From contig JACCXC010000020.1 in NCBI GenBank assembly GCA_013697275.1, positions 1-59,294 of the forward strand: DNA of 59,294 nucleotides. Reading direction: 5' to 3'. The notes under the pieces were generated by a model, which saw nothing but the letters and a program-made list of their open reading frames with translations, did not search any database and was not told where the DNA came from. Source of the DNA: Actinomycetota bacterium. Its GTDB lineage: Bacteria; Actinomycetota; Thermoleophilia; Gaiellales; Gaiellaceae. The translations under genes and the position numbers were made by a program. Shown here piece after piece: positions 16,738 through 19,578 of the stretch (positions within the stretch are counted from its first letter, which is position 1; every line of letters starts with the position of its first letter).

Positions 16738-17607
16738 GTGGAGACCGCAGCCCGGGCCGTCCTCGCCATCCTTCTTCTGATCGCGGCAGCCGCCAAGCTG
16801 CGGTCGCGCGCCGAGCTGCCCGAGCTACTAGGCGCCTATGGGATCCCCGGCCTGGCTCGGCGCCCGGCGGCGATTGCGCTCATCCTGGTAGAGGCATTCG
16901 TCGCCGTGCTCCTCCTCGTCGGCGCGCCTGGCTCCGCCTTCGCCGCGCTCGCGCTTGGGGCCGTCTTCGTGCTGGCCGCGGCGACCGCGCGGCTGCGCGG
17001 TCACAGGCGCGTTCGCTGCGGCTGCTTCGGCGCCGCCGAGCGCCCGTGGAGCTGGATACTGGCACGCGCCCTCGGGTTCACAGTCTTAGCAGGGGTGGCT
17101 GCCTTCGGCGGCGAACTCGATCTCGCTTCCCCGACCCGAGACACGCTGGTGCTCGCAGCCCTCGCCATCCTCGCCTTCGCCGTCCTCGTTCTAGGGGTGC
17201 TCGTCCTCGCCCTCTACCGCCACGTGGGCGTCCTCTCTCTACGGATTGCGCCGAGCGCGGCTCTTGAACTGGAAGGAGAGGGCCCGCCGGTCGGAACCCC
17301 GGCGCCCGCGCTCGCGGGTCTCACCCGGCGTGGCGCGGAGCTCGTCGCCTTCTTCGCCGAGGACTGCCGTCTCTGCCGGGATCTCGCGCCCGGCGTTCGC
17401 GCGCTAGAACGGGAGGGCGTTGCCGTTCGCATCGCGTACGAGGCGCAGGAAGGGCCTGCGTTCTCACGCTGGAACGTCCCCGGGGCGCCTTTCGTCGTCC
17501 ACATCGTCGACGGTGTCGTGGCGGCGAAGGGGCTCGTGAACACGTTGGAGCAGCTGGACGGCCTCGTGGCTACCGGCCGCGCAAGGAAGGCGCATGCGGC
17601 GGCCTGA
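16738..17607 (+). CDS. MauE-MauD-like fusion: membrane domain plus thioredoxin-like domain
   Basis: A 289-residue protein. The N-terminal half (about 1-160) has MauE/DoxX-like membrane segments and the MauE signature CGCFG (Cys94, Cys96). The C-terminal half (about 180-289) is a thioredoxin-like domain with CxxC motif CRLC (Cys210, Cys213) and a cis-proline loop VPGAPFVV (Pro251). In methylamine-utilising bacteria MauE and MauD are separate proteins needed to fold the disulfide-rich light chain; here they are fused. The gene overlaps the MauA-like gene by 14 nt, which supports a dedicated role in making its disulfides. Confidence 0.8.
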   Translation: METAARAVLAILLLIAAAAKLRSRAELPELLGAYGIPGLARRPAAIALILVEAFVAVLLLVGAPGSAFAALALGAVFVLAAATARLRGHRRVRCGCFGAAERPWSWILARALGFTVLAGVAAFGGELDLASPTRDTLVLAALAILAFAVLVLGVLVLALYRHVGVLSLRIAPSAALELEGEGPPVGTPAPALAGLTRRGAELVAFFAEDCRLCRDLAPGVRALEREGVAVRIAYEAQEGPAFSRWNVPGAPFVVHIVDGVVAAKGLVNTLEQLDGLVATGRARKAHAAA

Positions 17608-18193
17608 CGAGGTCGTCGACGGTGCGGCGGAGGCGCTCGCGGCCGGCCTTGCGCGCGGCCATACGCGCCGCTCGTTCCTCGGACGGGTCGGCGTGACGCT
17701 CCTCGCCGTCATGGGCGGCTCCGCGGTCGCGGCGGCCGTGCGCCCGGACGAGGCGGAGAGCTTCCATTTCTGCGGGCACATCTGGACCACTGGCTCGTGC
17801 CCGAATCCATATTCGCTGCCGCGAATCGACCGCCGCGGCTTTCCGCTCCGGCCGCGAGACGGCCGCCCGATCGACAATCTGGGCCGCCTCGTGGACGCCG
17901 AGGGCTACCCCGCCGACGAGACGGGCGCGCGGCTCGCCGGGCCGGACGGTGAGCTGCTCGAACGCGGGCCGCGCACACGACTCTGCGAGGACTGGGTGCC
18001 GGAGCAATTCCGAATCGACGCGGTCACACAGGGTTCCTGGTACCGCTGCTGCAGCGGTCAGGTCCGCAAGCTGGTGGACTGCTGCTCGACGAGCACGAAG
18101 CGCGTGAACGGCGACAAGGCGCTCAGGGGCTACTGCTACACGGGCCGGCGGGTCTTCTGCGTCATGTACTACGACACCGGGCTCCCGTGCTGA
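17594..18193 (+). CDS. MauA-like cysteine-rich Tat-exported protein (methylamine dehydrogenase light-chain-like)
   Basis: A 199-residue protein with a twin-arginine signal (HTRRSFLGRVGVTLLAV, about 24-40) and ten cysteines after it (60, 69, 131, 152, 153, 163, 164, 181, 189, 199). The C-terminal pattern GSWYRCC...VDCCS...GYCYTG resembles the methylamine dehydrogenase light chain, where SWVASC holds Trp57 and IIWCFG holds Trp108 of the TTQ cofactor. By this hand alignment Trp149 matches Trp57, while Tyr180 stands where Trp108 would be. A standard TTQ therefore seems unlikely. The N-terminal arrangement (DEVVDG...RGHTRR) also recalls MauA precursors. Its substrate is unknown. It overlaps genes on both sides. 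Confidence 0.65.
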   Translation: MRRPDEVVDGAAEALAAGLARGHTRRSFLGRVGVTLLAVMGGSAVAAAVRPDEAESFHFCGHIWTTGSCPNPYSLPRIDRRGFPLRPRDGRPIDNLGRLVDAEGYPADETGARLAGPDGELLERGPRTRLCEDWVPEQFRIDAVTQGSWYRCCSGQVRKLVDCCSTSTKRVNGDKALRGYCYTGRRVFCVMYYDTGLPC

Positions 18194-19578
18194 TCGAGGC
18201 GACGGTCGCCGTCGCCGCGCTCGTCGCGGGGATTTCCGGCGCCTGGTCGCCCTGAGGCCTGTCGATGATCGAAACGATCACTCCTGCCGTGTGCGGGAAC
18301 CGTAGGCGCCGGCGGATCGCAGTTGCCCTCTTCGGATTGGCCGCGATCCTCGCGGCAGCGCTCGTGGGCGCCGCGCTGGGCGCGCTCGGTGCCGCCCTGG
18401 GCGCTCGGCAGGCGGTGATCGCGGTGGCCGTGCTGGCCGGGCTTGCTGCGGCCAGCGAGCTGGGTTTCCTGCGGCTCCCTCTGCCGCAACTTCGATTGCA
18501 GGTTCCCGATTGGTGGCGCTTCCAGCTGCCGCTCCCAGTCTGGGCTGCCGGGTATGGCGCCGGGCTCGGGGTCGGGGTGCTGACCTATCAGCCTTTCGCG
18601 ACCTTCTGGATCGCCTGCGTGGCCGCCGTAACCGTGGCGAGCCCCGGAGCCGCGGCCGCCTGTTTCGCGCTGTACGGCGCCGGACGGACTCTGATGGTCG
18701 CCTGGCCCGCGCGCGGAGGCCGGGACGCTCCCCTCGCGGTCGAGGGGCTCGTCAGCCGCCGCCCGGCGCTCGCGCGCGCCAATGGGCTCGTCCTCGCCGC
18801 CACCGCGCTCGCTCTCGGCCTTGCCGCTGTCCCCGCCGCCGCCGCCCAGCCCATTTACCTGGGCGGGGGGAATCAGCTCGACCCATCGGTCTCGAGCGGG
18901 ACGCTCGCCTACACCCAGCGTGACGGCACCGTCGCCGGGGTCGTCCTTCGCCCGTCGGGGAGCCACGATGTGACCTACACCGGGCGAACGCCCTCGCTCG
19001 ACGGCAACGTGCTGGCCTATGCCGCTGCGGACGGCATCCACGTGGTCCGCTGGCGCTCACGCGAGGAGCTCCAGCGCGCCCCGAACGCGTCGATGCCCGC
19101 ACTCGACTGGCCTTGGCTTGCCTATCGAATCGACACGTGGGATGGAGCCCGTGAGCTCTGGTTGACGAACCTCGCCAGCGGAGATCTACGGCTCCTGACC
19201 CGGGTCGGCGCAGGCCTCGACCTCGGTCGTGCAAGCGTCGCGGCCGGTCGTGTCGCTTGGACTGTCTCCGGCGTGCAGGGGTCACGCATCGGCCTCTACA
19301 CGATCGAGACAGAGAAGCGGCGGATCTTCGTCCGCAGCAAGATCTCCGTCCTCGCGAATCCGGCACTGAGCGATTCGCGGATCCTCTGGGTGGAGCAGAA
19401 ACGCGGGTTCTCGTACTTGCGCCTTCGGCCGCTCGAGAGCTCGAGGACGACGACTCTCGCGAGCTCGGGTGATCGCGACCTCGTCTTCTGGACGACCGCC
19501 CTCTCCGGCCGGGACGCCTACGTCACGGTCTGGCTCGTCTCGAGCGGGGTCGCCCAGTTGGAGCGCTACCGGTTCTAG
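18187..19578 (+). CDS. CcdA-like membrane domain plus beta-propeller-like domain, with in-frame TGA (possible selenocysteine)
   Basis: A GTG at 18187 overlaps the MauA-like stop by 7 nt and opens a frame reading MLIEATVAVAALVAGISGAW-SP, then TGA (18253-18255, codon 23), then GLSMIETI and on to 19578 (463 codons). CcdA/DsbD-type membrane proteins have a catalytic SPC at the end of the first helix; the TGA falls on that cysteine. About five to six hydrophobic segments fill residues 1-210. Residues 215-463 are repeated beta-rich units (SGTLAYTQRDGT, LDGNVLAYAAADG, DWPWLAYRIDTWDG, AAGRVAWTVSGVQG) like TolB or WD-type propellers. If there is no recoding, the ATG at 18265 gives a 437-residue protein without the SPC helix and without a good ribosome binding site. 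Confidence 0.6.
18266..18280 (+). promoter_or_regulatory. Candidate SECIS-like hairpin downstream of in-frame TGA
   Basis: TGATC GAAAC GATCA (stem up to 6 bp, TGATCG/CGATCA) starts 10 nt after the TGA. Bacterial SECIS elements lie just 3' of the UGA with a small apical loop that has a G among its first two bases; with a 5-bp stem the loop here is GAAAC. The hairpin is short and could be chance. Confidence 0.3.

Follow-up and report, generated by a model that had tools for sequence, protein, structure and literature searches.

CcdA and DsbD move electrons across the membrane through a pair of cysteines, and within the mau cluster MauE and MauD are required for the light chain. To our knowledge, no selenocysteine (Sec) membrane protein has been placed among the mau components. 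Among the 119 families or subfamilies of prokaryotic selenoproteins in a 2026 review (PMC13188914), we found neither an SPUG motif nor a CcdA-like membrane protein with a single Sec. The families that the deep-Sep paper leaves unnamed originate in Desulfo- bacteria. The window analyzed here, a 59,294-nucleotide stretch of an actinomycetotal genome of the class Thermoleophilia, contains a 463-codon gene (18187-19578; like all features of the window given below, on the + strand) whose in-frame UGA very likely encodes selenocysteine, a rare amino acid and the 21st of the genetic code, a conclusion that rests on comparative sequence evidence and not on any protein or selenium measurement.

The reading frame of this gene opens with a GTG at 18187-18189, in overlap with the TGA stop (18191-18193) of an upstream Cys-rich gene. 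Its first 22 codons lead to a TGA at 18253-18255, which is codon 23, and a further 440 sense codons follow before the TAG stop at 19576-19578. A check of the sequence confirmed that this TGA is the sole interruption of the frame. The peptide encoded before it is MLIEATVAVAALVAGISGAWSP and the one after it begins GLSMIETI, and with the UGA read as Sec the motif at the site is SPUGLSM. A preliminary description of this stretch, made from the sequence alone, had claimed an uninterrupted frame across the TGA, which held, and 441 codons after it, which is slightly off.

Homologues of the gene were found in 18 of the 61 genomes of a first search (relatives and the genome itself), in 76 of 399 genomes when the search was extended to the class and in 71 of 396 genomes sampled from the phylum. 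The matches of the first search mostly had a single internal TGA, and a codon-by-codon reading found it always at one SP-x-G site, with TGC in one genome. The matches of the phylum search were read codon by codon only in part, the remainder having mostly one TGA whose position was left unchecked. Across 86 distinct homologous loci from Thermoleophilia and other Actinomycetota, the codon at the site is TGA in 60, TGC in 23 and TGT in 3, and no other codon occurs; an extra row, L146 with ACG, was left out of this tally as a spurious second match. The comparison thus shows a site occupied by Sec or Cys, as the preliminary description had proposed for codon 23 (60 TGA, 26 Cys, 0 other), and on the tree the two forms have switched at least three times.

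These counts bear on the possibility, also raised in the preliminary description, that the TGA of this genome arose from a Cys codon through a nonsense mutation or an error of sequencing or assembly. In its favor, TGC or TGT and TGA differ by only one base. However, the same TGA is present in 60 distinct loci of genomes that were assembled separately, and the TGA copies carry a SECIS-like hairpin that the Cys copies lack, so that this explanation is all but excluded.

Some variation was observed among the homologues. In a clade formed by L106, L131 and L143 (and in L020) the UGA is followed by Ser, not Gly, and the SECIS-like hairpin has moved to +20 nt with the loop CGUGC. Divergent paralogues (L026, L146, L150 and L151) have SG, ST or SL in place of SP before the UGA, and some genomes contain several copies, three in the case of G035. 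One locus (L138, G344:C210) has two copies on opposite strands, and another (L141, G376:C271) has two overlapping frames that resemble a frameshift or a broken copy.

A second alternative is that the UGA is a true stop and the gene begins at the ATG at 18265-18267, giving a protein of 437 amino acids without the first helix, in which case the frame upstream would be spurious or a short leader. In its support, the ATG is the start that standard gene calling would pick, which yields exactly this 437-aa ORF, and most relatives also have an ATG after the TGA. The segment 5′ of the Sec codon (18187-18252) encodes the first hydrophobic helix of the protein, which an annotation starting at 18265 would drop. 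Among eight long-form homologues, the differences in codons -14 to -1 relative to the TGA were 124 synonymous and 75 non-synonymous when read in frame, as against synonymous to non-synonymous ratios of 11:203 and 17:197 when the same 14 codons were read in the two shifted frames. The 14 codons 5′ of the TGA are therefore under protein-level selection in this frame. In addition, the Cys homologues read straight across the site, the equivalent of the ATG is a GTG in homologue L018 and encodes a residue other than Met in L025, and the hairpin described below accompanies TGA and not Cys. We consider a true stop very unlikely. The claim that a downstream start would delete the redox helix holds, the helix being coding in frame. 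Most homologues have TGA. Since gene callers would start after it, the redox residue and the first helix are probably absent from existing annotations.

A hairpin of the bacterial SECIS (bSECIS) type occupies 18281-18299, with a stem formed by 18282-18287 and 18293-18298 and the loop CGUGU at 18288-18292, 32 nt after the UGA. The stem has 6 bp in the window and 7 bp (18281-18287 with 18293-18299) in most relatives. Its minimum free energy is -8.2 kcal/mol with flanking bases, the simple stem energy being -7.2 kcal/mol. In the loop, the second position is a G and the next a U, and both this arrangement and the 32-nt spacing agree with the published bSECIS model (PMC13188914). Distinct loci of both kinds, 46 with Sec and 26 with Cys, were scored by an energy rule, which called for a hairpin within the published bSECIS constraints at -7.5 kcal/mol or below. 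The rule was satisfied in 39 of 46 Sec loci versus 3 of 26 Cys loci (Fisher p 9e-10); shuffling synonymous codons in the Sec set gave a null rate of 27%. When the helix at 18281-18299 itself was required, with at least five of its six pairs, it was present in 35 of the 46 Sec loci versus none of the 26 Cys loci, counted over the full sets.

The helix is also supported by covariation. At alignment columns 29-35 and 41-47, 93% of the cells were paired and five pairs had changed on both sides in a compensatory manner. The covariation score was equalled by 0 of 500 shuffles and by no slide of the helix, and RNAalifold recovered the same helix unprompted. The alignment used consisted of 30 sequences picked for having a hairpin at the standard place, and hence the percentage of paired cells is biased upward. 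Comparative sequence evidence thus shows a covarying bacterial SECIS 32 nt 3′ of the UGA that tracks TGA and not Cys. A different hairpin, at 18266-18280, had been proposed earlier as the SECIS; it is present (-5.1 kcal/mol), and we rejected it in this role, at least five of its six pairs being formed in 17 of 26 Cys loci versus 15 of 46 Sec loci. Since it is no commoner in Sec than in Cys loci, it is not linked to Sec. The earlier expectation of a bacterial SECIS just after the TGA held in part, the conserved element lying 15 nt further downstream.

The genome's own assembly, 93.6% complete and in 226 contigs, contains a complete selD (338 bits) and the first half of selA (270 bits), which is cut at the edge of contig C63. 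Neither selB nor selC was found in this draft assembly. Three selB candidates were rejected, those on C57 (L032) and C1 (L030) being EF-Tu fragments at contig ends and the one on C7 being IF-2, as were sub-threshold matches to tRNA-Sec, which are Ser, Leu, Arg and Gly tRNAs. The EF-Tu fragments, at the end of G000:C57 and the start of G000:C1, show that contig breaks in this assembly can split genes or remove them. In the relative G006, selB directly follows selA (364.7 bits) and a tRNA-Sec comes next at the end of the contig, and in other relatives selA and selC are 2-3 kb apart. Because relatives have both genes beside selA, the missing selB and selC fall where the assembly of the window's genome breaks. 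The same genome has a further Sec gene that is independent of this one, a formate dehydrogenase alpha subunit on the minus strand (L170, G000:C217) with TGA at about locus position 1157, in the canonical UHAP motif.

Among 72 genomes, comparison shows that selA, a part of the Sec machinery, is commoner with the TGA: it is present in 39 of 46 genomes with TGA versus 12 of 26 with Cys only (Fisher p = 0.001), and in genomes at least 95% complete the corresponding counts are 11 of 11 versus 9 of 14. The p value can serve only as a guide because the genomes share ancestry. The seven TGA genomes (of 46) in which selA was not detected are all at most 91% complete. The earlier proposal that selA, selB, selC and selD be looked for in the genome was thus met by selA (partial) and selD, with selB and selC absent from the assembly and adjoining selA in relatives. 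With the named checks either favorable or explained, the selenocysteine reading put forward in the preliminary description is supported.

In principle, a variant tRNA, for example one derived from tRNA-Sec or a tRNA-Cys with a UCA anticodon, could instead insert Cys or some other amino acid at the UGA. This would be consistent with Cys being the sole alternative residue at the site and with selC not having been found in the genome's own assembly. However, the relatives have an ordinary tRNA-Sec with the anticodon UCA together with selA and selB, the genome itself has selD and the UHAP formate dehydrogenase, and the hairpin is of the bacterial SECIS type, so that decoding by a variant tRNA is very unlikely.

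An AlphaFold2 model of the full protein (mean pLDDT 89.7) consists of helices up to residue 214 and a beta-propeller past residue 229. The propeller (residues about 227-463, encoded by 18865-19575, pLDDT mostly >90) is present only in the long form of the protein, and its top Foldseek matches are to TolB (E 3e-8). In the fold search with the full model the propeller outweighed the rest, so that this search says nothing of the fold of the membrane domain. When the membrane domain was compared by hhalign with the CcdA proteins of the same relatives, the two aligned over 197 columns with 92.4% probability, and Sec23 fell on the first redox Cys of CcdA in the (S/T)PC motif, a position at which every member of the family has Sec or Cys. 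No conserved Cys that could correspond to the second redox Cys of CcdA (PCxGP) was found in the aligned region in any part of the family. Because this second Cys is absent, an intramolecular relay of the CcdA type is impossible. Direct matches to known families were weak and confined to a minority of members (DsbD_2 at 4-6e-5, DsbD_TM at 2e-4); most members, including the protein of the window, have no significant Pfam match, and searching the PDB with a profile of the membrane domain gave no match. The profile homology supports regarding the membrane domain as a distant relative of CcdA/DsbD; the test for the second Cys failed, and the domain is not a member of that family. The original suggestion of a CcdA-like protein with its TGA at the redox Cys after SP holds as distant homology (92%), only the first redox position having been kept.

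The gene that overlaps the start of the selenoprotein gene (17594-18193) encodes a Tat-signal (RRSFLGR), Cys-rich, MauA-like exported protein. In the product of the gene before it (16738-17607), a MauE membrane domain is joined to a thioredoxin-like (MauD-like) domain that contains the motif CRLC; this product matches Pfam MauE (PF07291) at 1.2e-19 with 71 bits (cut-off 27) and NCBIfam MauD at 2.4e-8. The comparison shows that this linkage is conserved: at the 77 loci with enough upstream sequence, the Sec/Cys gene is near a thioredoxin gene in 70, a gene for the MauA-like Tat protein in 65 and MauE in 59. At five loci (L155, L160, L162, L164 and L168) the Sec domain and the MauE domain are fused in one protein. 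In the Tat protein, Cys residues (a conserved C and CC) and one Trp (W149) are invariant, the Trp being the feature that bears on a possible tryptophan tryptophylquinone cofactor as in MauA. Its identity as MauA is unproven, there being no Pfam match, no fold match and only one hint from PDB profiles, a match of E 0.058 to the light chain of methylamine dehydrogenase that runs mostly through the signal region. The Tat Cys-rich proteins are a family without a Pfam model that is tightly linked to the Sec gene phylum-wide.

We propose that ribosomes read the UGA at 18253-18255 as Sec, guided by the bSECIS at 18281-18299 with SelB, tRNA-Sec, SelA and SelD. The predicted product is a membrane protein that has Ser-Pro-Sec at the end of its first helix and in this lineage carries a beta-propeller. 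It may act with MauE and the thioredoxin-like protein in moving electrons across or within the membrane, its single Sec being joined for a time to a Cys of one or the other by a selenenyl-sulfide, and the chain would serve disulfide formation or repair in the Cys-rich MauA-like protein, which is exported by Tat and whose gene lies just upstream. The two parts of this explanation, a selenoprotein and a Sec-based relay with MauE and thioredoxin, are not equally secure. That the protein is a selenoprotein is very likely. Electron transfer as such, its direction and the Cys that partners the Sec are all inferred, and for the relay to an exported partner we regard the case for and against as balanced.

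It is possible that the protein is a selenoprotein with another role, for example a peroxidase or a membrane protein that handles a metal or selenium. The presence of only one redox residue and of a beta-propeller with no known binding partner would fit such a role. Against it stand the homology to CcdA/DsbD, the fact that the gene is strongly linked to those of thioredoxin, MauE and the Tat protein rich in Cys, and the fusion to MauE, and we retain the relay as our working proposal. A bolder reading is that of a selenoprotein family, phylum-wide in Actinomycetota and so far uncatalogued, whose single intramembrane Sec takes the place of the two-Cys relay of CcdA and forms, with MauE and thioredoxin, a split redox channel that matures an exported Cys-rich (possibly quinone-cofactor) protein, building selenium dependence into the maturation of envelope proteins. 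We put it forward with reservation, judging it slightly more likely to be wrong than right.

Neither NCBIfam (June 2026) nor Pfam has a model for the Sec membrane family, and the literature we searched contained no description of it; preprints and most subscription papers were outside that search, so an account that we did not see is possible. We conclude that a widespread family of membrane proteins in Actinomycetota, very likely selenoproteins and inferred to have a redox role, is missing from current catalogues. If this is correct, many Actinomycetota gain a reason to retain the Sec machinery, and the family would represent an unusual redox design, with one intramembrane Sec versus the two Cys of CcdA. 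Given the conserved set of Sec protein, MauE, thioredoxin and Tat Cys-rich protein, it can be tested directly what the system matures.

The family can be compared with four known systems. It shares in-frame UGA decoding with the bacterial Sec-formate dehydrogenase (UHxP), an example of which is present in the same genome; that enzyme, however, is an unrelated molybdoenzyme whose Sec is a metal ligand. Like TsoB (NF045694, rhodanese/DsbD fusion-like), it is a selenoprotein with a DsbD-like part (PMC13188914), whereas the motif listed for TsoB is UxxxxU with two Sec and the new family has no NCBIfam match to it. The locus resembles the mau cluster (MauE, MauD, MauA) in having a MauE domain, a MauD-like thioredoxin and a small Tat-exported Cys-rich protein, and differs from it in that the small protein has no Pfam match to the light chain. 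With the transmembrane domain of CcdA/DsbD (PF02683, PF13386) the alignment extends over the 197 columns and places SP-U/C on the first redox Cys of CcdA (SPC/TPC). Unlike CcdA/DsbD, the new family dispenses with the second redox Cys, has mostly Sec in place of the first and adds a beta-propeller or a fusion to MauE.
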